Origin: a virus
IMG/VR virus record: IMGVR_UViG_3300037628_000508
Span: 1 to 30,869 of that record
DNA: 30,869 bases
Reading direction: 5' to 3' (one strand)
This document shows, piece after piece, positions 7,524 to 28,809 of this stretch. A model generated the notes under the pieces. The model saw nothing but the letters and a program-made list of their open reading frames with translations. It was not told the DNA's origin and searched no databases. The position numbers and the translations under genes are program-made. How positions within the stretch are numbered: the first letter of the stretch is position 1; each line of letters starts with the position of its first letter.

Positions 7524-7855
7524 TCCACTACTTCTCAGCTTTCGGAGTGTGGATGATGGTTTGGCGGTTCCTGGGCGAGCCGCTGTCCCATGCGGATCCG
7601 GGCATCCTGGGTCAAGTCATGGCTACAGCTTTCATGATGGCTGTGATTGCCGGCCGGGAGATCTTTGATGCCAATAAGCTGGCTAAGATTAGAGGACTGA
7701 TCTTAAAGGACCTCATCGACGATAGTGAAAGCACACAGGAGTTAGAGCAACGTGCGATCATCTCCTTGCAGGACCCGCGTTTCACCCTGAAGAAGTCCCT
7801 CTGGGACCTGGGTGGTTGGGGAGCGGGTATTGCGACGATGATCATTCTGCTTTGA
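7487..7855 (+). CDS. three-span membrane protein
   Basis: The 122-aa product has hydrophobic segments at about residues 11-29, 40-57 and 105-122, with a charged helical stretch between the second and third. The family is not recognised. Such proteins next to a lipolytic gene may act at the inner membrane in lysis or exclusion, but this is a guess. Its TGA overlaps a TTG that begins the phospholipase-like gene (TTGA). Confidence 0.6.
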   Translation: MSERKHIAKRFVIHYFSAFGVWMMVWRFLGEPLSHADPGILGQVMATAFMMAVIAGREIFDANKLAKIRGLILKDLIDDSESTQELEQRAIISLQDPRFTLKKSLWDLGGWGAGIATMIILL

Positions 7856-8196
7856 TAAAAACCGACTACGAGTTCCATTTCGATGGCTGTAGTAAGTGGT
7901 TTGATGGGAACTGGCGCCCATGCTGTTACGCGCACGACCTGGCCTACTGGATGGGCGGGACCTACTGGCAGCGCGTGAAGGCTGACGCTAAACTTGGTTG
8001 GTGAGTGTTCCTCACGCAGAGGGTCCCTCTGCTTAAACCCCGTGACCTCGGTAATTGGCGAAACTACCCGAAGGCCGTTCCTCGACTGGTGATGGCCCCG
8101 CTTATGTTCCTGGGTGTGCAGATCGGCGGCATGGGTATTATCCCGGCTCCGTTTCGATGGGGCTTTGGATGGAAGTGGCCCAGGACTGGCCCATAA
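7852..8196 (+). pseudogene. phospholipase A2-like gene with one in-frame TGA (8002-8004)
   Basis: Two open segments in the same frame, 7852-8001 and 8005-8196, are separated only by TGA. The first encodes DGCSKW, CCYAHDLAYWMGGT and ADAKLGW; CCxxHD carries the His-Asp pair of phospholipase A2 enzymes, which cleave the sn-2 acyl chain of phospholipids. The second encodes a hydrophobic helix and FRWGFGWKWP, which I recall as the usual end of these phage proteins. The TGA falls at X in ADxxLxxX, where the family usually has Cys. A 7-bp hairpin (8016-8032) follows. It may be a nonsense mutation, sequencing error, split gene (GTG 8005) or recoded codon. Confidence 0.7.
8016..8032 (+). other. hairpin GCAGAGGGTCCCTCTGC, 11 nt after the in-frame TGA
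   Basis: A 7-bp perfect stem closes a GTC loop; counted as a 6-bp stem, the loop reads GGTCC. The apical loop begins 18 nt after the TGA. Bacterial SECIS elements are hairpins in the coding region just after UGA with a G early in the apical loop. The well-studied fdhF element also has a GGUC loop at similar spacing, but it has a bulged U that is absent here. Confidence 0.4.
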
Positions 8197-8292: not shown

Positions 8293-8311
8293 TTGACAGC
8301 TTTGCCATACT
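8293..8311 (+). promoter_or_regulatory. TTGACA-N7-CATACT box (copy A)
   Basis: TTGACA at 8293-8298 and CATACT at 8306-8311. Three other copies with identical 7-bp spacing lie at 8393, 12982 and 20555. It precedes the small RNA candidate by a few bases. The spacing is too short for a standard -35/-10 pair. Confidence 0.5.
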
Positions 8312-8315
8312 GAAG

Positions 8316-8388
8316 ATGGTGACCCACACCATGGCGAACTTTTCTCCCGCCATCGAAAGGAGCGGCTTCGGCTGCTCCTTTTCTTTTT
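8316..8388 (+). ncRNA. compact structured RNA candidate with terminator
   Basis: In 73 nt the sequence offers ATGGTG/CACCAT (8316-8321, 8327-8332), the mutually exclusive ATGGCG/CGCCAT (8331-8336, 8348-8353), and a terminal hairpin with T-run. CGCCAT could also pair with ATGGTG, so alternative folds exist, as in attenuators. A TTGACA box lies just upstream and a second just downstream, so this may be a free-standing small RNA. A 21-codon frame (ATG 8331) overlaps but has no ribosome binding site. Confidence 0.45.
8356..8388 (+). terminator. strong intrinsic terminator with UUCG tetraloop
   Basis: An 11-bp stem (8356-8366 with 8371-8381, one G-U pair) closes a TTCG loop and is followed by TCTTTTT. 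This is a textbook Rho-independent terminator. It separates the upstream genes from the basic-protein operon. Confidence 0.9.
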
Positions 8389-8392
8389 GGTG

Positions 8393-8411
8393 TTGACAAG
8401 CTACGGATACT
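8393..8411 (+). promoter_or_regulatory. TTGACA-N7-GATACT box (copy B), probable promoter region
   Basis: TTGACA 8393-8398 and GATACT 8406-8411 lie directly after the terminator and 39 bp before ATG 8432. Being the only sequence between terminator and operon, this stretch must hold the operon's promoter if it has its own. AGGAGG for the first gene follows closely. Confidence 0.6.
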
Positions 8412-8431
8412 GGACATAGGAGGAAGTCACC

Positions 8432-8788
8432 ATGGCTGAGACAGCAAAAAGGAAACCGCTCCCAAAAGGAGTGACCGAAGCTCAACGAGTCGCCGATATC
8501 CAGGCCGGTCGAAGTGAACGTGCCGGTCACGCAATGGTCAAGAGGAGCCCCCCACCCAAGCGAAGCGTTTCCGACATTGTCTTCGGCGCAGGCAGAGGCA
8601 TTGGTCAGGCACTTCGAGGAGCCGTGTTTCCCAAATCCGAAACAGAAAGGCAGAAGAAGCTCAAGGAAGCTAGAGAGGCAGCGAGAGGTGGAGCAGCCAG
8701 GGGAGCCACTGAATCGCTTCCTGTTGGCAGGGCCATGAAGAAGCGTAAATCCACCCGCAAGTCCAATCGAAACTCAGGGAGGAGGTAA
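8432..8788 (+). CDS. small basic-tail protein 1
   Basis: The 118-aa, strongly basic product ends in KKRKSTRKSNRNSGRR. The centre has a Gly/Ala-rich stretch (DIVFGAGRGIGQALRGAVF) and a charged helix (ETERQKKLKEAREAARGGAARGA). It is the first of five consecutive genes with related C-terminal tails. ATAGGAGG precedes the ATG. The last codons and stop (GGG AGG AGG TAA) form the ribosome binding site of the next gene, which starts 2 nt later. No known family; DNA binding or capsid incorporation is possible from the charge. Confidence 0.75.
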   Translation: MAETAKRKPLPKGVTEAQRVADIQAGRSERAGHAMVKRSPPPKRSVSDIVFGAGRGIGQALRGAVFPKSETERQKKLKEAREAARGGAARGATESLPVGRAMKKRKSTRKSNRNSGRR

Positions 8789-8790
8789 TC

Positions 8791-9180
8791 ATGGCTGGTA
8801 ATGCAATCAAGGCGTTTAGAGCGAAAGGGCAAGCAAAGAAGGCCGCAAAGCGAAGGGCCAAGACTGATCTCCCGCACGGCAGTTACCGAAAAATAGAAAT
8901 GCACCGGGGGAAAGAGATCATTCCAAAGAAGTCAAATCCGACTAGGGAAGCCTTTCTTGCTGAACATCAGGGAGCTGGCAGTTTGGCTGGATTCTATATG
9001 GCGAAGAAGTCCAAGCGAGAGCACAAAAAGTTCAGTCCTATCGGCTTAGGACGGACCAAGGAGGGCAGAACCCCCAGGAGTCCCAAAGTTCCCTTTGAGC
9101 GGGGTCGCATTGGTCTTAAGCCCATACGAAAGAAAACCCGCAAGTCCAGTCGTGACTCAGCCCGCAAGTCAGGGAGGTAG
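8791..9180 (+). CDS. small basic-tail protein 2
   Basis: The 129-aa product is basic throughout, with an N-terminal KAFRAKGQAKKAAKRRAK helix. Its tail has a doubled unit, RKSSRDSARKSGR. Middle residues (about 50-70, EAFLAEHQGAGSLAGFYM) are less charged and may form the folded part. The ribosome binding site is supplied by the 3' end of the previous gene, and its own GGGAGG tail codons serve the gene at 9184. The function is unknown. Confidence 0.75.
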   Translation: MAGNAIKAFRAKGQAKKAAKRRAKTDLPHGSYRKIEMHRGKEIIPKKSNPTREAFLAEHQGAGSLAGFYMAKKSKREHKKFSPIGLGRTKEGRTPRSPKVPFERGRIGLKPIRKKTRKSSRDSARKSGR

Positions 9181-9183
9181 CCA

Positions 9184-9378
9184 ATGACTCATGTACCGCG
9201 TGATCCAGGACCAGCAAATAATCCAAAGCATGAAATGTCGGGACCGCTTCGAATGGGACCTAAAAAGTTAGCCAAACGAATCTTTGGACCAAGGAAAGAT
9301 CGACAAGCAAAACGTGAGGCGAAACTCATGCCCAAGCGAGGATCGGGACGGAAGCCTATTCGCAAGCCAGGGAGATAG
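9184..9378 (+). CDS. small basic-tail protein 3
   Basis: The 64-aa product is the shortest of the set: a Pro/Asn-rich start (THVPRDPGPANNPKHEM), a basic middle (GPKKLAKRIFGPRKDRQAKR) and the tail SGRKPIRKPGR, a Pro variant of the SGR ending. It starts 3 nt after the previous stop, and its GGGAG codons precede the next ATG. It may be mostly disordered, and would be expected to bind nucleic acid or acidic proteins (inference). Confidence 0.7.
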   Translation: MTHVPRDPGPANNPKHEMSGPLRMGPKKLAKRIFGPRKDRQAKREAKLMPKRGSGRKPIRKPGR

Positions 9379-9381
9379 CCA

Positions 9382-9774
9382 ATGGCCGAGAAGCTCAGAA
9401 TCATGCCCAAGAGGAGAAGGAAGGGCCTGAAGCGTACCCCAACCAAGATCATGGCGAGTTCGGCCTCCCCGATCCCAGGTAAGGGCCTGTTCACCAGGGA
9501 CACCCGCCTTGTCAGCGTCACCGGAGGCAGGGGCAAAGTGGCCGTCAAAAAACGGTTCGAGGCACAAAAGGCCGGTGCACCAGGGCCAGTTCTTTCCGGT
9601 GAGCAAAAGGGTGTGATTAAACGAATGGACGCTCAAATTGCGCGGGATCAGCGCGTTCAATCGCTCAAGAAGCGAGCCGGTACTACAGTCTATGGCCGCG
9701 CTGCGAAGAAACAAAGAGAAGAACATAAGAGAGCGAAATCCCGCAAGTCCAGTCGCAAGTCAGGGAGACATTGA
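9382..9774 (+). CDS. small basic-tail protein 4
   Basis: The 130-aa product has a very basic start (IMPKRRRKGLKRTPTK), a less charged middle with IPGKGLFTRDTRLVSV, a helix (SGEQKGVIKRMDAQIARDQR) and the tail KSRKSSRKSGRH. The tail is encoded by the same DNA repeats as in protein 2. Its stop is directly followed by the next ATG. There is no family match that I know. Confidence 0.75.
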   Translation: MAEKLRIMPKRRRKGLKRTPTKIMASSASPIPGKGLFTRDTRLVSVTGGRGKVAVKKRFEAQKAGAPGPVLSGEQKGVIKRMDAQIARDQRVQSLKKRAGTTVYGRAAKKQREEHKRAKSRKSSRKSGRH

Positions 9775-10263
9775 ATGGCCGAAGAAACCCACAGCACCAC
9801 AGCACAAGAAGAAAAAAAGAAAAAGGGCAGTATCCTCGGCACAGTGGGCCGCGCCATTGGCAGGGGAGCGAAAAGGACCGCTGGTGCTGCAAAGAAAGCA
9901 GTCTTGACTGATCCCCGCGTCAAGCGCGTACGGGAAGTCTTCAAGGACACACCGGCAACGACAACGACAACTCCTCAACCTAAAGGCCCACTCACCAAGG
10001 AAAAGATTGAGGCCGCAAGGAAGAAGCCAGTCAGCAGGAGAAGAAAGATTATTGGAGGAGCTGCCCGAGGAGTAGGAGGAGCTCTCAGGACCAGGGAAAC
10101 AGGCCGCGAAATGGTAGGAGATGTGATCCCGAAAATCGCTGGAACAGCAGGAACACCTTTGGCTACCGCCTCAGAACGAACAATCCAAGAGTTAAACAGG
10201 CCCTTCAAAAGAAAAGCGACCAGGACCACCAGGCGGTCCACTCGGTCATCAAGTAGGAGGTAA
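9775..10263 (+). CDS. small basic-tail protein 5
   Basis: The 162-aa product has a lysine run (EEKKKKGS), Gly/Ala-rich basic segments (TVGRAIGRGAKRTAGAAKKAV and GGAARGVGGALRTR) and a Thr-rich linker. It ends in RTTRRSTRSSSRR, where Ser/Arg replaces the KSGR of its neighbours. The composition resembles chromatin-condensing proteins. Its end (AGTAGGAGGTAA) provides the ribosome binding site of the next gene at 10266. Confidence 0.75.
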   Translation: MAEETHSTTAQEEKKKKGSILGTVGRAIGRGAKRTAGAAKKAVLTDPRVKRVREVFKDTPATTTTTPQPKGPLTKEKIEAARKKPVSRRRKIIGGAARGVGGALRTRETGREMVGDVIPKIAGTAGTPLATASERTIQELNRPFKRKATRTTRRSTRSSSRR

Positions 10264-10265
10264 CA

Positions 10266-10598
10266 ATGGCAGTAGGAGAATTAGAAGTAGTCGTCAGCGC
10301 ACCGGGAACGCCCGTTCCACTTTCGGCTGTATCGAAAGTGGTCAATCATTTCACCATCCAGGCCGGAAAGACCGGAGCTTCTCCAGGAACCAACACTGGG
10401 GATATCTATGTCGGGAGTGAAGTTGTTGGGAATGGTTCAGGAACTCCCCAGGATGCTTTTGGAGTCAGGTTGGCAACCGGACAGTCCTACTCTCCTCCTC
10501 CTTCGGGAGTTGGACCCAATCCCTACAATCTGAGGGACTATTTCATCAACGCCGACAACGCCGACGACGGTGCGACCGTACTGTTCGATGTAAACTAA
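10266..10598 (+). CDS. virion-domain protein, VYVGDS-type copy 1
   Basis: The 110-aa beta-rich product contains PVPLSAVSKVVNHFTIQ, NTGDIYVGSEVV and YNLRDYFINADNADDGATV. The order (PLSA, FIQ, NTGxxYVG, L.d.FI, dG..V) is shared with the first 105 residues of the protein at 26935 and with the protein at 28492. From memory this domain is common in phage decoration or fibre-associated proteins. Its stop overlaps the methyltransferase start (TAATG). Confidence 0.65.
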   Translation: MAVGELEVVVSAPGTPVPLSAVSKVVNHFTIQAGKTGASPGTNTGDIYVGSEVVGNGSGTPQDAFGVRLATGQSYSPPPSGVGPNPYNLRDYFINADNADDGATVLFDVN

Positions 10599-11266
10599 TG
10601 CCGCGTGTAACGTGGGACACCGAAGCTGAGTTTGACGATCACTATCGGCAAAACATTCGGGATCCCAATCATCCTCAATTCGGGCAATGGGTAGGCTACG
10701 GGCGTCTGTTCGCTCAGCACTACAGCCAGCCCTACAACAGCGATATCACGGAGTACGAAGACCGGGCCAGCGAACTGATCGGCGCGTTCGGACTTGGAGC
10801 GACAGACCGGATCTGGGTGATGGGCTGCGGCCTGGGCTACCTGATCGAAGCCTTCATCGACCTGGGATTCACCAACATTTGGGGAGTGGACAGTAGTGCC
10901 CACGTCGCCAATATCCGTGCCGTTGAAGCGCGACCCGATGTGTCCTTTGCAGAGCGGGGCATCATGTCCATCACACCCGCAGAGATCAACGCCCTGACCG
11001 GAGGCACTCAGTTTGATTGGATCATTACTGAATCGGTCCTGGAAAGCTACGATGATATCGAGATGATTCCGTTCTTCAATACGACAGCTGCGCGGCTGTT
11101 TGGCCCGACACCGAACGATCATGTGATTCACATGATTAAGACTTTTGAGCCAGGGGATGATGACTGGAAGGTTGATCCTGTCTTCAACCGCAAATCGCTG
11201 GCAGATTGGAAGGCTCTGAAATCTGATCAGAGCTTCATTGACTATGTGACCTGGGACTTTCTGTAA
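10598..11266 (+). CDS. SAM-dependent methyltransferase (class I fold)
   Basis: The 222-aa product has motif I VMGCGLGYL at residues 74-82 and an acidic strand end GVDSS at 96-100, as in Rossmann-fold methyltransferases that bind S-adenosylmethionine. No DPPY, NPPY or PCQ motif of DNA methyltransferases is visible, so a protein or small-molecule substrate is more likely. It lies in the virion operon, coupled on both sides by TAATG, just after the lysine-rich tail proteins. The substrate is unknown. Confidence 0.75.
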   Translation: MPRVTWDTEAEFDDHYRQNIRDPNHPQFGQWVGYGRLFAQHYSQPYNSDITEYEDRASELIGAFGLGATDRIWVMGCGLGYLIEAFIDLGFTNIWGVDSSAHVANIRAVEARPDVSFAERGIMSITPAEINALTGGTQFDWIITESVLESYDDIEMIPFFNTTAARLFGPTPNDHVIHMIKTFEPGDDDWKVDPVFNRKSLADWKALKSDQSFIDYVTWDFL

Positions 11267-12864
11267 TGCCTTTTCCGACCACCATCACTGGCGTAACCGC
11301 CCTCGCTAGAGCAGCAGGAAAGAGCGGTCCCTTTGTGTCCAGCAGCGGAGCTGTCTATGGCGTGTTCCGCAACGACACAAACATAGGCGACCTGGATATC
11401 ATCAAGTTATCCTCTCCGGAGGACGGCTTCACTCTGGCAGCCAGTCTCACCATGACTGGAACGAACGCAAATATTTTCTCCTACGCAGCCACTCAAGTCG
11501 GGGACAACATTCATATCGCAACCTCAATCCTTGCTTCCGGTCCCACTGAGCCGATTCTCTATCACGTCTTTTCAATGTCCAGTGACACCTTCACCACCAG
11601 CAATGAGGACACTGGAGGAGAAGGCGTCACACCCGTGGATGCCAACAAGAACATCGACATTGCCGTGAGAAGCGGAGGGCCTGTCATCGGTTACAACGGT
11701 CCAACCGCAAACGTCATGGGGCAGAAGCAGAGAGCCAACTTCGCTCGTAAGGACGGGGCCGTATGGACTTCGGATATCGCCCTGGACGACGGTGGAGAGG
11801 TGAATTTTTTCTTTTGCGGCTGTGTCTTAGGGGCCGGTGATAAGGTGCATTTCGTCTATCACGACGACACCAACACCAATGCGGTCCACAAGAGCCTGAC
11901 TTCCGGGAATGTCCTTTCCGCTGCCGAAAATACCAACGATACCGCAACGGACACAGAAGATTTTATCCTTCCTCGTCCTGTCTTTTACGATGCTACCGGG
12001 GTGGAACGGATCACCACCGCACACATGACGAGTGGAGAACTGTTCTCCTCAGAGATCGACGCCGATGGAGTGCCAGGAGCTCAAGAACAGGTCAGCGATA
12101 GCTCTCCCGTTATCAACAACGAACAAGTGATGGCTTCCCTTTTCGTCAAATCCGATGTGGACCGAGTCTACGCCCTTTACGCGAGGCAGAGTGACGGTGA
12201 TTTGTACCGTGATGAGAACACCAACAGCGGAGGTTGGGGCGTAGATACCTCAGAGTTCGTCGGCTCGATTACCTTTGTCTCGGGTAATTTCTTCACCCGA
12301 GAGGGAAGACCGACGTTGGCTTATTTTGTCGTTGATGGCGGGGTCGTCAAGTACAACGAGCTGGCCGCCTTAGCGGATCTCACCGGAACCCTGGCCGACC
12401 TGACCGTAGAACAGAATATTGTCGATGGCGGGAAGGTTCTTGTCATTACCCTGACCAACGCGATCTGGGTTGCGGCCGGGGCCACGTTTGAAGCGCAGCG
12501 ACAGAACATCATCGACGGTATGGACTCCGCACAGTCGGAGCTGACCGGATGGAACAACGAGGTTCGAGACAAGGAAGTGGTCGGGGCTGTCGTGCGCACC
12601 AGCGATACGGTTGTGACGATCACCCTGACAGCATCCCCCGCCTACGATATTACCGTCAGCGAAGCCATCACTGTGACGATTCCTGGGACCGCCTACGAGA
12701 ACGATCCGTTCGATGGTGGTGACTTCCCCGCTGAACCCCTTGTGCAAGTTCAACGGATTCCAGTTCCAGGTGAATTTGATCCTTTCGCGTCAATAGGGGG
12801 ATCGGGGCTTGGGGGGATTTCCAGGAACCACACACCGCCTGGAACAATCGTTGACTACGGCTAA
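11266..12864 (+). CDS. large beta-rich virion protein with C-terminal phage domain
   Basis: The 532-aa product has an N-terminal 350 residues of repeated beta strands that resemble a propeller (FVSSSGAVYGVF, VFYDATGVERIT, RVYALYARQSDGDLY). A module at about residues 375-465 contains IVDGGKVLVITLTNAIW, FEAQRQNIIDGMDSAQSELTGWN and VGAVVRTSDTVVTITL. That module recurs, from memory, in phage tail and fibre proteins. Probable virion or host-surface component. It is the last gene of the operon, followed by a terminator. Confidence 0.65.
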   Translation: MPFPTTITGVTALARAAGKSGPFVSSSGAVYGVFRNDTNIGDLDIIKLSSPEDGFTLAASLTMTGTNANIFSYAATQVGDNIHIATSILASGPTEPILYHVFSMSSDTFTTSNEDTGGEGVTPVDANKNIDIAVRSGGPVIGYNGPTANVMGQKQRANFARKDGAVWTSDIALDDGGEVNFFFCGCVLGAGDKVHFVYHDDTNTNAVHKSLTSGNVLSAAENTNDTATDTEDFILPRPVFYDATGVERITTAHMTSGELFSSEIDADGVPGAQEQVSDSSPVINNEQVMASLFVKSDVDRVYALYARQSDGDLYRDENTNSGGWGVDTSEFVGSITFVSGNFFTREGRPTLAYFVVDGGVVKYNELAALADLTGTLADLTVEQNIVDGGKVLVITLTNAIWVAAGATFEAQRQNIIDGMDSAQSELTGWNNEVRDKEVVGAVVRTSDTVVTITLTASPAYDITVSEAITVTIPGTAYENDPFDGGDFPAEPLVQVQRIPVPGEFDPFASIGGSGLGGISRNHTPPGTIVDYG

Positions 12865-12981: not shown

Positions 12982-13000
12982 TTGACAGCCTCAGTATGCT
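12982..13000 (+). promoter_or_regulatory. TTGACA-N7-TATGCT box (copy C)
   Basis: TTGACA 12982-12987 and TATGCT 12995-13000, then CAGAATAGAG, 34 bp before ATG 13016. A 6-bp dyad AGCCTC/GAGGCT (12987-12992, 13008-13013) overlaps it. After the terminator at 12870 this is the best promoter candidate for the packaging genes. Confidence 0.55.
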
Positions 13001-13015
13001 CAGAATAGAGGCTGA

Positions 13016-17331: not shown

Positions 17332-17931
17332 ATGCCCGGAGTAACCGTATCTGAAGTTCTTTGTCCAACATGCCGTTTCGGGGGCATGCATGAAAACTAT
17401 CTCAAAAACCGCGAGGGTGTCTTTGGGACTTTCTGTGACGCAGGCCACATGTTCAACGATACCGCCGATATGCAGGATGCCATCAAACGCGCCAACGCCA
17501 AGTTCGGGAAGCCTGAACCAGTACAGGCGTCTGTACCCGCAAAGCCGGATCCAACTCCGGAGGAGAAGAAGGCAGCCGCAACGCGAGAATTTAAGGCAGA
17601 GGTCCTGGTCGTGGATCAGGAGAACCGCAACCGGATCCAGAAGATCCTGGGAGTGAACATCACAGGCCCCTCTGACCTGTATGGCGCAATCTTCGCAATG
17701 AAGGAGGAGCTGAAGACTGCTCAAAAGTCTGTTGCCCAGGAAGTTCCCGGGCAAGGCCCCGTAGCTCTCCGGAAGGATCAAGTCGTGATCACCCTGCCCG
17801 AATGGTGCTCGGAATCATTCAAAGACTTCGCGCAGGGTATGGGGATTGAAATTGAGGAATTTGCCAATCAGCAGTTCGAGGAGTACCTGCGTGGCCTCTA
17901 TGTAGACACGCAATCGCAGAAGGTAGGCTAA
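17332..17931 (+). CDS. Cys-containing protein 2 of the post-terminase cluster
   Basis: The 199-aa product starts with CPTCRFGG and FCDAGHMF, together a plausible zinc site within the first 42 residues, then a Pro-rich linker and a charged helical region. The C-terminal part (VVITLPEWCSESFKDFAQGMG) resembles a small folded domain. GAGGAG precedes the ATG. One copy of the 16-bp dyad GTACAGGCGTCTGTAC lies inside the coding region at 17520-17535. Its TAA overlaps the next ATG. Confidence 0.65.
   Translation: MPGVTVSEVLCPTCRFGGMHENYLKNREGVFGTFCDAGHMFNDTADMQDAIKRANAKFGKPEPVQASVPAKPDPTPEEKKAAATREFKAEVLVVDQENRNRIQKILGVNITGPSDLYGAIFAMKEELKTAQKSVAQEVPGQGPVALRKDQVVITLPEWCSESFKDFAQGMGIEIEEFANQQFEEYLRGLYVDTQSQKVG
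17520..17535 (+). promoter_or_regulatory. near-palindrome GTACAGGCGTCTGTAC inside a gene
   Basis: This 16-mer is the exact reverse complement of 2114-2129 and identical to 27916-27931. Here it is read as Val-Gln-Ala-Ser-Val, and at 27916 in another frame, so protein constraint does not explain its recurrence. Confidence 0.5.
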
Positions 17932-18290
17932 TGCCCGTTTGGGATTTTGAGTGCTCAAAATGTGGACGTAAAGAACTCGACGTTCACAACGTACAGTTCG
18001 ATCCAGAACCGATCTGGCCTAGTTGCTGCGGGGAGCGTATGGAAATGCTTTTCAGTACAGCGGTCAACGCTCCCTTTGAACCTTTCACAACGACCCACAT
18101 TCATCCTGAAGGAAAACCGCTGAGAGTTCGTACTCAAAAAGATCTGAGTCACCTTCAAAATAGATTTGGAGTGCAGCAGGTCGCTGATCCCAACCTGATC
18201 TCCGAAGGAACCAAACCTCACAACCAGCGATTCAGGCACAAAGACACATCGAACCGCACTTACTTTGATGCGGGGAGAAGGGGCCGATGA
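17931..18290 (+). CDS. FmdB-type zinc-ribbon protein
   Basis: The 119-aa product begins MPVWDFECSKCGRKELDV and has PSCCGERMEMLFST about 30 residues on, the CxxC...CC layout of FmdB-type zinc ribbons. Such proteins are frequent between TerL and portal in phages; the role is unknown. The remaining part is basic and ends FDAGRRGR. It is coupled to both neighbours by short overlaps (TAATG upstream, ATGA downstream). Confidence 0.75.
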   Translation: MPVWDFECSKCGRKELDVHNVQFDPEPIWPSCCGERMEMLFSTAVNAPFEPFTTTHIHPEGKPLRVRTQKDLSHLQNRFGVQQVADPNLISEGTKPHNQRFRHKDTSNRTYFDAGRRGR

Positions 18291-18679: not shown

Positions 18680-20558
18680 CGACTCAATTCCAGAACAGCC
18701 CTGGGAGCTGCTTCAGTACCAGCCAGGACTCGATCCAGCGAAGCAGGAGAAGAGGCTAAAGGACTATTGCCACACCGCCCATGAACAGGCTTGGCAATAC
18801 ATGTCGGCTTCTGAGGAAGTACGCCAGATAGATCAACACATCTCCTACTTGATGGGGAACCAGTGGCCGACCAAGAGGCCCTCTTACAAGGCTGCACCAA
18901 TCAACAACCGTCTACTGAGACAGCTTGAGGAAGTGACAGCCGTTCTGACCGATGTTCGACCCACCTTCGAAGTCCAGGCCCTCAATTCTATCTACCACGA
19001 ACAAGCTGAAATTTACTCAAAGACCACAAAAGCGTGGTGGCTCATGCAGGACAATGACCTGAAGCTGGCCATGGCGACCATTCACGCCTATCTCAGTACC
19101 GGTTTCTTGAGAATTGTCTGGAACTCCAGCCTTATGGGTGGGGAAGGTGACTTTCAGCTGGTTCCACTTGGTATCGCTGAAGTGATGCCAATAGGACCAA
19201 GCTATGAACTGCAAGATTGGGAAGGGGTTGTTTATAGAACGAGCCGATCGTTATCCTTTTTCAAAAGGCGGTTTCCCCTCGCCGGATGGAAAGTAAAACC
19301 AAGCGTTGAGCACAGCAGTTACGCTCGTCCGTTCTCGCGGCCAAAGTATGTCGGCCAACATGCCTTTGAGCTCCTGTCTCCTCAGATGAAGCGAGTTATT
19401 GGTGGAGTCCCTCAGTATCTCCCAGGTGTCCTTCAACAAGCACCATACACCGAGTTTTGGATTAAAGATTATCAACTCAATACCAGCGATAAGGCTGTGA
19501 TCATGGGTCCGGTTGATACAAATTGGGCCTATCGAGTTGAACCTGGGAACCAGCTCTACCCTCGTGGCAGACTCATCATCACGGGTGGGGACGAGTTCGA
19601 TCTGATGTACGATGGTCCCAATCCTTACTGGCACGGTCGTTACCCTTTCATTACGGTTCGACTCAAGCCGGTCCCCTGGCAATTTCATGGGGTCAGCGAA
19701 TTGCGTACCAAGATTCCGATGCAGGATATCGTCAACACGGTCCTGGCCGGGATATTGGATATGATCAAGAAGGCGGTCAACCCCCCACTGATCTTCCCGG
19801 ATAACGCATTCAGTTACGCGGTCAAGGCGCAGATGGATCCCAATATGCCCAACGCCAAGATCGGATACAGTCCACAGTCACCCGCTGCCCCGCAATATGC
19901 TCGGATCCCTGATCTACCAAGTTTTGTTCAAAACACACTTCTCTATGCTCAACAGGAAATGGATGACGATTCGGGCCTACTCGATGTTGGAGGATTGGCC
20001 CGCAAGAAAATCACGCCAGCTGGCAACACCTTGGAGCAGCTCAGAGAAAATCAACAGACCATCATGAGGCTCCGGGGTCGTTACATGGAAGTGGCACTGA
20101 GGGAGATGGGCGAACAGATGATCTCCAATTTCATGCAGTTCTATGACGTGCGCCGGCGAATGTTCCTTTTGGGTTCTGACGGAGTGACCTTCGAGGACGT
20201 TTTTGATTGGGATCCGGGAACGATGGTTCCCCATGGCATCCATCCCAGAGATCACAGAAAGCAGTTCGTCTTTCTGATGGCGCAAGGAAGCACACTCAAT
20301 GCCACCCGCGAGAAAGAAGCTCTTGTGGCTTTCGCCTTAGCCAAGGAAGGAAGGTACAGCACGCAAGCGTTGTTCCGGAAACTTGGAATGGAGAACGAAT
20401 ACAAGAGAGTCATGAAGGAGTTGGGCGAAGAAGAAGTAGCCATGATTCGCAGGATGGCTCTGAGTCAAATGCTCGCTCAACAGGCAGGAGGAGGACAGGC
20501 AGGCGGGCCCGGAGGAAAAGGCTCCCAAAACATAGGGAATTTACTGCAATTAGCTTGA
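18657..20558 (+). CDS. portal protein
   Basis: The product is 633 aa from ATG 18657; GTG 18618 would add 13 residues. Portals form the dodecameric ring through which TerL pumps DNA. Features include an N-terminal YMSASEEVRQIDQHISYLMGNQW, VTAVLTDVRPTFEVQ, a central region with PYWHGRYPFITVR, GVSELRTKIPMQDIVN, and a helical Gln-rich stretch (GNTLEQLRENQQTIMRLRGRY). Size and pattern match large P22-type or related portals. The stop codon lies inside a TTGACA box (copy D). Confidence 0.85.
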   Translation: MAVFDNLDDSIPEQPWELLQYQPGLDPAKQEKRLKDYCHTAHEQAWQYMSASEEVRQIDQHISYLMGNQWPTKRPSYKAAPINNRLLRQLEEVTAVLTDVRPTFEVQALNSIYHEQAEIYSKTTKAWWLMQDNDLKLAMATIHAYLSTGFLRIVWNSSLMGGEGDFQLVPLGIAEVMPIGPSYELQDWEGVVYRTSRSLSFFKRRFPLAGWKVKPSVEHSSYARPFSRPKYVGQHAFELLSPQMKRVIGGVPQYLPGVLQQAPYTEFWIKDYQLNTSDKAVIMGPVDTNWAYRVEPGNQLYPRGRLIITGGDEFDLMYDGPNPYWHGRYPFITVRLKPVPWQFHGVSELRTKIPMQDIVNTVLAGILDMIKKAVNPPLIFPDNAFSYAVKAQMDPNMPNAKIGYSPQSPAAPQYARIPDLPSFVQNTLLYAQQEMDDDSGLLDVGGLARKKITPAGNTLEQLRENQQTIMRLRGRYMEVALREMGEQMISNFMQFYDVRRRMFLLGSDGVTFEDVFDWDPGTMVPHGIHPRDHRKQFVFLMAQGSTLNATREKEALVAFALAKEGRYSTQALFRKLGMENEYKRVMKELGEEEVAMIRRMALSQMLAQQAGGGQAGGPGGKGSQNIGNLLQLA

Positions 20559-20573
20559 CAAGCTATTTATGCT
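20555..20573 (+). promoter_or_regulatory. TTGACA-N7-TATGCT box (copy D)
   Basis: TTGACA 20555-20560 and TATGCT 20568-20573, then GAGAATAGAAG, 31 bp before ATG 20586. TAGCTTGACAAGCTA (20551-20565) is a palindrome centred on one A. Copy C and copy D share TATGCTNAGAATAGA. Confidence 0.55.
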
Positions 20574-20585
20574 GAGAATAGAAGT

Positions 20586-20804
20586 ATGGCTAAACAACCG
20601 CCCAAAGGAAAAATGCCAGTTGGCCCGAAATTCAAGAGGGTCATGGGCGAGTATGGCAACAGAACACTTCACCATGGCGGTAGTGGTGAAATCGTCAGGG
20701 ACGTAAAGGTAGCTACCGCAATAGCCGCTTCCGAGCAGCGCAAAGCGACTCGGGAGACGCGACGGAAACCACGTCGCTCACAAGGGCGACACAACAGGAG
20801 GTAA
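20586..20804 (+). CDS. small basic-tail protein 6
   Basis: The 72-aa product is basic, with the tail TRETRRKPRRSQGRHNRR. The N-terminal part (PKGKMPVGPKFKRVMGEYG) is also basic. It is preceded by the TTGACA box, and its end (AACAGGAGGTAA) supplies the next ribosome binding site, as in the genes at 8432-10263. The function is unknown, but charge and genetic design tie it to that set. Confidence 0.65.
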   Translation: MAKQPPKGKMPVGPKFKRVMGEYGNRTLHHGGSGEIVRDVKVATAIAASEQRKATRETRRKPRRSQGRHNRR

Positions 20805-26014: not shown

Positions 26015-26686
26015 ATGGCGATTTCAGGTTCGGAAGTGATCGACCTGGTCCTCAAAAGACTGGACGAGACGATTTCCCCTATTTTCTGGACTCGTCCCGA
26101 AATGCTCCTCTATCTCAACGAGGGCATGAAGGAGCTGAACAACTTAGCAGCTAAACTGCACCTGGAGAGTGGAGTCGTTACCGATTCTACCGACAACTTC
26201 TACGCACCACCTACCGACACAATCGCTGTCATGTCGGCTTCCGTTGGAGACAAGTCGCTGGAACGGGTCACGTTGGAGGACCTGGACCGCGAAGATCGTT
26301 TCTGGGAAGGCAAGACAGGGACCATCCTGAAGCGGTGGGCTCCGATCGGTTGCAACCTCTTTGCTGTTTTCCCCAGGCCCACGGTAGCGTCGTCCGTCAC
26401 GGTTGATTTTGTGGTCATGAAGCTCCCGGCCAGTATCGAAGACAACAATGATGCGATTGATATGGACGATGAGTTCATTGAGTCGATCGAGGATTACACC
26501 TTCCACATTGCCCGTTTCAAGGAAGGGGGTCCTGAGTTCGCACACGCTATGGCAGCTTTCAAAAACGCTTTAGAGCGTATGGGTGATGTGGCCCGGAAGG
26601 TTTACAGCCAACAGCCCGTCATTTGGACAGCGGAGCCAGCTCTGGATACAGGACCTTCCTACTCAACTCCGGATCGAGGGAGATAG
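26015..26686 (+). CDS. head-to-tail adaptor-like protein
   Basis: The 223-aa product has an N-terminal helical pattern (SEVIDLVLKRLDETISPIFWTRPEMLLYLNEGMKEL) typical of adaptor proteins that attach to the portal ring, then beta strands and a C-terminal helix (AHAMAAFKNALERMGDV). Its position after capsid genes and its similarity in shape to the C-terminal domain of the gene at 26935 support the call. The TAG is directly followed by the next start. Confidence 0.65.
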   Translation: MAISGSEVIDLVLKRLDETISPIFWTRPEMLLYLNEGMKELNNLAAKLHLESGVVTDSTDNFYAPPTDTIAVMSASVGDKSLERVTLEDLDREDRFWEGKTGTILKRWAPIGCNLFAVFPRPTVASSVTVDFVVMKLPASIEDNNDAIDMDDEFIESIEDYTFHIARFKEGGPEFAHAMAAFKNALERMGDVARKVYSQQPVIWTAEPALDTGPSYSTPDRGR

Positions 26687-26938
26687 ATGGTATCGAATAC
26701 AGGGGATATTCCAGGGACCTCCGGAGGGGGGGGGAGCTTACAAAGCTCTCTGGGGTCTACGGCCATGATCGGCATACCAGGAGATATGACTACCTCTGTA
26801 GGCCCTGGTCCGATTGCCAGAAAAAAGAGAAGGGGAGTCAGAAGCCGCAGTTTTTACAATGAAGCTGGACGGGTGAAGAAGCAGAAGCAGGAAAGAAGTA
26901 TGAAGCGGAAAGCGAGAAGGGTGAGCGGTAGAAGATGA
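26687..26938 (+). CDS. small basic-tail protein 7
   Basis: The 83-aa product has a Gly/Ser-rich first half (GDIPGTSGGGGSLQSSLGSTAM) and a very basic second half (ARKKRRGVRSRSF, KKQKQERSMKRKARRVSGRR). The VSGRR ending matches the SGR(R) ends of the proteins at 8432-9180. Its TGA overlaps the next ATG (ATGA). Clean folding is unlikely; it may bind DNA or pack inside the capsid (inference). Confidence 0.65.
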   Translation: MVSNTGDIPGTSGGGGSLQSSLGSTAMIGIPGDMTTSVGPGPIARKKRRGVRSRSFYNEAGRVKKQKQERSMKRKARRVSGRR

Positions 26939-27912
26939 CGCTGGCGACGATCAATAACTTTATTGCGACCACGGCCGGGACAGCCGTACCGCTCTCGGCC
27001 ACGTCGATCGAAACGAATTGGTGCTTCATCCAGGTGCTTCGGACCAACACTGGAAAGGTTTACGTTGGAGATTCCACAGTGGACAACACGAACCTGGGCG
27101 GGATCACTCTTGAAGCACCGCTTCCGAGTATGTCCCTGCCCTTTGAAGCCCTCGAAAGCAAGCGGTCAGACGCTCTCATTGACCTGAATGCGGTGTTCAT
27201 CGACGTGGATAATACCGGGGAAGGGGTCAATATCGTCTACGCCCAGTCTGTCGCTCCAGCTCTGGGACCGCAAACGGTTCAAGATATGCTCGATCAGATC
27301 ATCTTCATGACCCAGGAGGAAGATACGTTCTCATCGGGCTTCTGGACCGAGTCAGAGATTATCAGCTACATCAATGATATAGAGAAGGACTTTTTCGACA
27401 GAACGGGCTGTTTCAAGAGACAGGATACCGTTGGTGCGACAGCTGGCGATCGTGTGTTCTTAGAACCTAGCGATTCGATGAGTATTGATCGGATCACCTT
27501 CAACCAGGTCCCCCTGCACCGGACAGACCGTTGGATGCTCGATATGGAGAACCGGGACTGGAAGAACCAGCCAGCTGGTGTACCCAAGCAGTACCACCAG
27601 GACCTCCTTTTGACCAAGCGGTTTGAAGTGGATCGGGACGTTTCGCCCCCTGGCCAGGATTTCACCCTGACCTACACAATCCTGCCCGCTACGCTGACCA
27701 GCTCTGGGGACCTGTTGAACATCACTCCAGCCTTCTTTCACTACATCCTCTACGGTGTACTCGAGAAGATGCTTGGAAAGCAGGGCGAGGGCCAGGAATT
27801 GAGTAAGGAGAAATACTGTCACGCACGGTATGAGGCAGGAGTAGCCACTGTGCTGACTCTCATGAGATCACAAGCGAGGGCCATTGAAAGAATATTTGCG
27901 CAGTCAGCTTGA
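26935..27912 (+). CDS. fusion of VYVGDS-type domain and adaptor-like domain
   Basis: The 325-aa product has two parts. Residues 1-107 carry PLSATSIETNWCFIQV, TNTGKVYVGDSTVDN, LPFEAL and LNAVFIDVDNTGEGVN, the same domain as at 10266 and 28492. Residues 112-325 carry a helical start (QDMLDQIIFMTQEEDTFSSGFWTESEIISYIND), a beta core and a C-terminal helical region, like the adaptor at 26015. It probably links a decoration or fibre module to the connector. Confidence 0.65.
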   Translation: MTLATINNFIATTAGTAVPLSATSIETNWCFIQVLRTNTGKVYVGDSTVDNTNLGGITLEAPLPSMSLPFEALESKRSDALIDLNAVFIDVDNTGEGVNIVYAQSVAPALGPQTVQDMLDQIIFMTQEEDTFSSGFWTESEIISYINDIEKDFFDRTGCFKRQDTVGATAGDRVFLEPSDSMSIDRITFNQVPLHRTDRWMLDMENRDWKNQPAGVPKQYHQDLLLTKRFEVDRDVSPPGQDFTLTYTILPATLTSSGDLLNITPAFFHYILYGVLEKMLGKQGEGQELSKEKYCHARYEAGVATVLTLMRSQARAIERIFAQSA

Positions 27913-28491: not shown

Positions 28492-28809
28492 GTGCCGATT
28501 CGTTTGCTCTCGAATGTCACCCTGCCAGCTTCTCCAGCGGCCACGGTCCTCAGTGGTCTGTCCATTGAGGCCGTTTGGGTCTTGCTCCAGGTCTTGAGGG
28601 GCAACGGCGGGAAGATCTTTGTCGGTGACAGTACGGTGCTCGCCGATGGACTGGCCGGTGTGGAGCTGCAAACTCCGATCATCGGCAATACGTTGCCCTT
28701 CACCACGCTTCCGGCCCCGGGCAATACGACGATCAACCTCAATGAGATCTTCATTCACGGTGAGGTCGGATTAGACGGTGTGAATGTGCAGTACCTGGCA
28801 TTGATATAG
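28492..28809 (+). CDS. VYVGDS-type virion-domain protein, copy 3
   Basis: The 105-aa product starts at GTG 28492, directly after the previous stop. It carries VLSGLSIEAVWVLLQVLRG, GGKIFVGDSTVLADGLAGVEL, NTLPFTTL, INLNEIFIHGE and GVNVQYLALI, aligning along its length with residues 1-107 of the protein at 26935 and more distantly with the protein at 10266. Probably a small decoration or fibre-base protein. The next gene starts 7 nt downstream. Confidence 0.65.
   Translation: MPIRLLSNVTLPASPAATVLSGLSIEAVWVLLQVLRGNGGKIFVGDSTVLADGLAGVELQTPIIGNTLPFTTLPAPGNTTINLNEIFIHGEVGLDGVNVQYLALI

Follow-up and report, generated by a model that had tools for sequence, protein, structure and literature searches.

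Exchangeable C-terminal Arg/Ser tails on a variable cassette array of small basic phage proteins: a candidate tag for accessory head proteins

Why should consecutive genes of a phage encode small, very basic proteins that differ in their N-terminal parts and end in related tails? The question arises from the 30,869-base uncultured phage record IMGVR_UViG_3300037628_000508 from IMG/VR, here called the window. Its genes include those for a terminase, a phrog_9953 major capsid protein and a P22/SU10-like portal, besides two SU10-adaptor-like genes. A first-pass annotation had described five consecutive basic genes at 8432–10263 with histone- or protamine-like tails and had offered three roles, namely condensation of DNA in the capsid, a capsid-targeting tag, or binding of host nucleic acid.

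All five frames were found, on the plus strand and back to back with a stop-to-start spacing of 0–3 bases. Gene A (8432–8788, 118 aa) consists of a conserved body (..PPPKRSxSDIVFGAGR..), a variable linker and the tail KKRKSTRKSNRNSGRR (codons 8738–8785), and leads the array in every record extending that far. It is followed by gene B (8791–9180, 129 aa; tail RKKTRKSSRDSARKSGR, about 9118–9177), gene C (9184–9378, 64 aa; tail PKRGSGRKPIRKPGR, 9331–9375, the most divergent of the array tails), gene D (9382–9774, 130 aa; tail AKSRKSSRKSGRH, up to 9771) and gene E (9775–10263, 162 aa; tail NRPFKRKATRTTRRSTRSSSRR, 10195–10260). The C-terminal ends read RKSNRNSGRR in A, RKSSRDSARKSGR in B, GRKPIRKPGR in C (the weakest fit), RKSSRKSGRH in D and RRSTRSSSRR in E. 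The right border of the array is formed by the 10266 gene (10266–10598, plus strand), which encodes a conserved 110-aa protein predicted to be beta-rich and lies directly 3' of the array in every relative reaching that side. Two further genes for which similar endings had been claimed are likewise present on the plus strand and end alike: 20586–20804 (72 aa, downstream of the portal) with the tail RRKPRRSQGRHNRR and the end RRSQGRHNRR, and 26687–26938 (83 aa, between the two SU10-adaptor-like genes) with the tail MKRKARRVSGRR and the end RKARRVSGRR; the counterpart of the latter in L051 has the tail RRVMRRSSRR. The predicted pI of all seven tailed proteins is 11.7–12.0 and their whole-protein net charge ranges from +15 to +31.

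Several features of the surroundings were recorded. A beta-rich domain of ~100 aa occurs in three copies, alone at 10266–10598 and 28492–28809 and fused to the N-terminus of a SU10-adaptor-like protein at 26935–27270; structural matches to the beta-rich model of the 10266 protein were weak and mixed (E 0.01 or worse). The tailed genes E and 26687 directly precede two of the three copies, and the two SU10-adaptor-like genes (PF24175; 26015–26686 and 26935–27912) flank 26687. Past 10266 lies a methyltransferase-like gene (10598–11266) with a weak PADLOC mad2 match, which is also present in L003, L025 and L009; an unrelated 119-aa gene takes its place in L018. The large protein 3' of the array (11266–12864; L006 2452–4446; L018 2211–4472) carries a repeated module (..IIITL..IIDGLDSAQSE..GWNAEVRDKEVV..TSDTVVTITL..), the copy number of which differs widely between relatives. 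A small Cys/His-containing frame at 7816–8004 (DGCSKWFDGNWRPCCYAHDLAYWMGGT) gave no Pfam match; we take it to recall a phospholipase A2-like CC..HD motif.

As Lys and Arg abound along the whole of these proteins, resemblance between the tails was judged against shuffled versions of each tail. Over the last 30 residues of A–E the summed pairwise score is 390 versus 241 ± 17 for the shuffles, with 0 of 500 reaching 390. For the seven tails (A–E, 20586 and 26687) it is 832 versus 523 ± 26 (0/500). The bodies of A–E, with 317 versus 308 ± 20, exhibit no similarity. Differing N-terminal parts with related tails, as originally described, are thus borne out, the tails being alike beyond composition and the bodies not. 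Shuffling for charge only gave p values of 0.0012–0.023 for A, E, 20586 and 26687, 0.051 for B, and 0.25 and 0.23 for C and D, for which charge alone therefore makes the weaker case. Of the ~57 genes of the window, these seven are the only convincing ones with a tail net charge of at least +7. The same scan of the relative G001 (108 kb, 192 genes predicted from pieces covering nearly the whole record) returned four array genes, a 20586-like and a 26687-like gene, and one further match, an unrelated Lys-rich protein.

Three genes of G001, all on the minus strand, were noted. One, between large structural genes, encodes a small protein whose end is Lys-rich (KKNGNKKQRKRKKAN; L038, 16098–16355) and of another kind than the Arg/Ser tails; this protein has no PHROG match. 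A 1196-aa protein (L038, 12118–15708) matches the internal virion protein family phrog_511 (E 5e-8), and a 1728-aa protein (L037, 14533–19719) matches phrog_9854 (E 2e-44), for which the function is given as unknown.

If "histone-like" is read as homology, it finds no support. Pfam, PHROG and NCBIfam gave no significant match for the five array proteins (in Pfam none at E up to 1, histone and HU families included), and a profile of gene A had no hit among PDB chains at that same limit. In the array bodies neither a recognised domain nor a defence-related match turned up; Cys is absent from them and Trp/Tyr nearly so. The structure model of gene E (pLDDT 53, very low confidence) is too poor for a structure search. 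The 20586 protein shares a weak alignment with DUF6496 (PF20106; residues 15–56, E 0.032), which at 15 bits stays below the curated Pfam cut-off of 24 and recurs in only one of six members of the 20586 family. Membrane-active amphipathic segments in the bodies, a reading prompted by GTVGRAIGRGAK and FGAILGGAKKLLGG, were rejected: the hydrophobic moments seldom exceed those of shuffles, and in the outlier, gene E (6/200), the segment concerned is its own basic tail. The T4-type prohead protease (Peptidase_S77), which removes the tag of the T-even internal proteins, had no match in the window or G001, the control genomes being unmatched as well; the other prohead protease family, S78, was not found, while its controls did match.

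To see how the locus varies, relatives were collected with the terminase, the capsid protein, the 10266 protein, 20586 and genes A and E as queries. Counting the window, eight records extend to the array. The order A B C D E of the window recurs in L042/L024, where the record stops within E. L003 carries A B C D E F, L006 A B C E F', L025 A C E G and L009, which belongs to G001, A B D E H; gene C is accordingly absent from L009 and gene D from L006 and L025, and the gene D of L003 and L009 lacks the N-terminal insert and is 68 aa long. In the last two records the contig start cuts the array, leaving I J K in L018 and, in L019, one more tailed gene with a relative of F and a relative of K. The frames are therefore not peculiar to the window; their absence from related phages would have spoken against the initial description. 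When the last 22 residues are removed, BLAST sorts the 35 array proteins into 11 unrelated body families, and the last 20 residues carry a net charge of +5 to +10 in all 35. The last 14 residues comprise 32% Arg, 12% Lys, 19% Ser, 11% Thr and 11% Gly. Acidic and hydrophobic residues are nearly absent from the tails, with 0.46 hydrophobic residues per 14 versus 2.8 in the bodies. Such a make-up, rich in Arg, Ser and Lys with few hydrophobic or acidic residues, suggests that the tail would bind nucleic acid electrostatically.

An array of this composition could also be a DNA-condensing core, in which the whole set neutralises the charge of the packaged genome, in the manner of protamine-like and core proteins of certain eukaryotic viruses, and delivers no specific job to the host; body variation would then reflect that bulk basic charge is all that counts. 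The bodies are indeed basic too, as the whole-protein charges indicate, besides being aromatic-poor and Cys-free, and the Arg bias of the tails matches the positive segments of many viral capsid proteins (PMC7096446). The individual families are conserved beyond what bulk charge would need, however, with pN/pS values of 0.26–0.59 for the bodies by family and with the alignments of genes A and E pointing the same way. The capsid-protein relatives lack such tails, and tailed phages that package by motor usually manage without such proteins. We consider a condensing core rather unlikely, though the chief alternative to our own reading.

A quite different origin of the tails is suggested by their DNA. 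The final 2–4 codons of each array gene double, in frame, as the Shine–Dalgarno sequence of the next gene. At the A/B junction, tca ggg AGG AGG taa tc ATG (8774–8793), the last two Arg codons of gene A (AGGAGG, 8780–8785, plus strand) serve gene B, and at the B/C junction, tca ggg agg tag cca ATG, the final codons GGG AGG of gene B serve gene C. The terminal GR, RR or GRH letters are thus partly forced. In the last four codons of the 35 array genes 40 of 47 Arg codons (85%) are AGG or AGA; this share is 37% at array codons 5–20 and 32% in other genes of the window. Owing to the same overlap, the unrelated window genes 17931–18290 and 26015–26686 end in RGR.

Taken further, these observations would make the tail peptides a by-product, with selection acting only on the ribosome-binding sites or recombination junctions and the peptides incidental to that DNA. 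The terminal bias towards AGR and the shared RGR ends speak for it, as does the fact that tail DNA is common to several genes and that cassette loss maps there (see below). The most telling case for the whole tail is the 20586 family. Seven of its sequences have the ribosome-binding site within the tail (AACAGGAGGTAA), and there the terminal Arg codons are AGG in 14 of 14 cases; in 11 others the site lies past the stop, the terminal Arg codons are CGN in 19 of 19, and the tail KRSSRRKSSRR is kept identically or nearly so. The change from AGG to CGN probably represents one evolutionary switch, the sequences forming two clades, and comparison of the two shows the basic end surviving without the overlap. 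A mere ribosome-binding site is thereby ruled out as an account of the tail, which is kept at the protein level in the absence of the site, contrary to the possibility that only the embedded sites are conserved. Purifying selection moreover reaches 25 codons inward: pN/pS over residues 6–25 from the end is 0.48 for A, 0.42 for B, 0.29 for C, 0.27 for D and 0.10 for E, with few differences behind each of the last three figures. Gene A of L006 retains SGRG using CGG, and genes having the site only, such as 26015, are without a 20-residue basic tail. As an account of the entire tail the by-product explanation hence falls for the most part, and we hold it very improbable; of the last 2–4 codons it stays true.

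The tail DNA also records how the cassettes are related. Codons 6–25, excluding those of the ribosome-binding site, were compared with synonymous recodings using the codon usage of the window. The tails are more alike than the recodings for A–B (1/500), A–D (4/500) and B–D (0/500), and likewise for E–F in L003 (0/500) and L006 (1/500) and for E–H in L009 (0/500). The tails of C and of the window's E have no excess DNA similarity to A, B and D by the same measure. As the similarity exceeds that of synonymous recoding, the tails of A, B and D, those of E/F and those of E/H can be said to share DNA ancestry, not convergence alone.

Gene E of the window is a chimera. Four relatives have a gene E with the end ...STRYGGR or STTRYGGR; a single additional tailed gene comes next in them, which ends in ...SSSRR or SPSRR directly 5' of the 10266 gene. 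In the window, gene E ends in STRSSSRR with the 10266 gene directly next. By this alignment, its body and proximal tail are those of E and run into the SSSRR end of a missing last cassette of the F/F' type, the join falling in about 35 bases nearly common to both genes. In L019 the DNA read as SSSRR in other records lies untranslated past the stop of the K gene (TCATCAAGTAGGAGGTAACAAATG), with a shorter version in L018; the L019 stretch looks like a scar of the same joining process. From these arrangements we infer that the cassette events run in the direction of loss, not gain.

The control region ties the array to the virion genes. A promoter-like motif, TTGACAnnCTnnnnATRCTG, often followed by agAATAg, occurs twice on the plus strand ahead of gene A, at 8293–8312 (TTGACAGCTTTGCCATACTG, 120 bases before the gene) and at 8393–8412 (TTGACAAGCTACGGATACTG, 19 bases before it). 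A terminator-like hairpin followed by CTTTTT (8355–8382, plus strand, −18.8 kcal/mol) also precedes the array, and the hairpin and both motif copies are conserved in six genomes. Two more plus-strand sites are found at 12982–13001 (one mismatch), before gene 13016 heading the packaging module, and at 20555–20574 (TTGACAAGCTATTTATGCTG), directly before the tailed gene 20586. Apart from 8293, the sites lie 10–25 bases 5' of genes. At up to one mismatch these four are the only sites in the window, the same four and no others occur in the G001 sequence analysed, and 40 random sequences with the dinucleotide make-up of the window contained none. A canonical −10 element at standard spacing is absent from the sites. 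The motif looks like a candidate late promoter, and as such it would tie the array and 20586 to the virion genes and the packaging module. From gene position and this shared motif we infer a virion location of the tailed products.

Alternatively, the proteins could be nucleic-acid binders that are never packaged and act on host RNA, ribosomes or DNA in the infected cell. Nucleic-acid-binding proteins are often highly basic, and packaging is itself a conjecture from sequence. Against this stand the tailed genes of this kind in G001, which occur in the virion region only, and the promoter-like motif, which the array has in common with the packaging module; such a role seems quite improbable to us. 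A further alternative is that these are minor structural or assembly proteins whose tails bind a head component, such as the scaffold, the inner face of the capsid, the portal or the adaptor: 20586 and 26687 adjoin portal and adaptor genes, and the array lies in the virion region behind a motif common with the packaging module. The tail of the 20586 family varies, though (pN 0.216 versus 0.075 for the body), with its charge kept, which is more in keeping with an electrostatic contact than with specific docking, and the gain and loss of cassettes sets them apart from core structural genes. We regard head-component binding as improbable.

Of the three roles originally offered, a targeting or anchoring tag fits best, since a single tail style is common to 11 unrelated bodies; a histone-like homology finds no support. 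We tentatively propose, giving it somewhat less than an even chance, that the array encodes accessory head proteins held on the packaged DNA by an exchangeable C-terminal tag. It would be a late-gene cassette array in which each gene joins a variable body to an exchangeable low-complexity Arg/Ser tail. The sequence evidence for this comprises the one tail style on many unrelated bodies, the retention of the tail at the protein level save for the terminal codons that serve as ribosome-binding site, the tail DNA common to several genes with at least one cassette seemingly lost by a join within the tail, and the confinement of tailed genes to the virion-gene region in the nearly wholly scanned G001, together with the promoter-like motif directly 5' of the array and of 20586. 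In the further steps the tail would bind the packaged DNA without sequence specificity and so load the bodies into the head; the acidic inner face of the head or the scaffold might be the target instead. That the nucleic acid bound is the DNA being packaged is what a late product of the virion region points to. The bodies would then enter the host with the DNA and might perform differing accessory jobs there, e.g. neutralising host defences.

The fuller version of this proposal, that the Arg/Ser tail is a C-terminal packaging tag by which the phage loads an evolving set of proteins on its DNA and injects them, while the tail DNA also acts as ribosome-binding site and as homology for cassette loss or exchange, is possible but doubtful. 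The domainless bodies and the poor gene E model would be as much in line with disordered DNA binders as with folded effectors, or more so. Because they suit a condensing core nearly as well, our confidence in the tag is restrained.

Among known systems the T-even internal proteins are the closest in principle; these are unrelated small injected proteins with only a packaging tag in common (PMC3012670, PMC12373910). As for IPI, IPII and IPIII, the content of the loci varies between related phages, and a variable gene set with only a tag in common is found here too, in the form of 11 bodies with one tail style. The T-even tag is N-terminal and about 10 residues long (PMC7697877), whereas the tag proposed here is C-terminal, about 15–20 residues long and Arg/Ser-rich; a shared N-terminal capsid targeting sequence is absent, the 11 unrelated families having no common start. 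The T4 tag works via the scaffolding core, and packaging and injection are shown for T4, whereas for the present phage both are proposed; the phrog_9953 major capsid protein of this phage is a further difference. By analogy, then, the array resembles the T-even loci in working principle and is not a member of them.

The protamine-like and core proteins of eukaryotic dsDNA viruses offer a second comparison (in part PMC6163548 and PMC7096446). Like the array proteins, with their high pI and Arg-rich tails, they are small, very basic, Arg-biased, Ser/Thr-containing and apparently unstructured. No sequence homology to them was found, and the tail here is one module on differing, conserved proteins. 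Adenovirus, baculovirus and ascovirus are examples of viruses with such proteins. Tailed phages pack their DNA with a motor.

All relatives belong to one clade (terminases at least 87% identical), known here from metagenomic fragments, so that the number of independent events is small. Phages whose capsid proteins or terminases are distantly related (Mx8, BUCT555, two spring-water phages and L064, a distant relative by its capsid) have no such tails, which makes the basic tails, as far as these genomes tell, a habit of this clade. When the 10266 protein, gene A, the capsid protein or 20586 was scanned for, further fragments of this clade came up, and L064 as the one distant capsid relative; no new arrays were among them. 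A degenerate DNA pattern for RKS[ST]RKSG, a narrow test with one exact pattern, was found among 2.9 million viral contigs in this clade and in unrelated phages only; the strings in the latter are out-of-frame translations of SQV-type repeats. A host search of 84,980 species genomes found relatives neither for the terminase nor for gene E, and a literature search of partial coverage returned no tailed phage with a C-terminal basic tag common to variable small proteins.

If the tag does load heads, it would provide a C-terminal handle by which injected phage proteins could be recognised from sequence alone, and this handle would serve for uncultured phages, where proteomics is impossible. A single stretch of DNA acting as peptide tag, ribosome-binding site and cassette junction would furthermore be a compact example of an exchangeable array, in which exchange would be possible without breaking the expression of the neighbouring genes.
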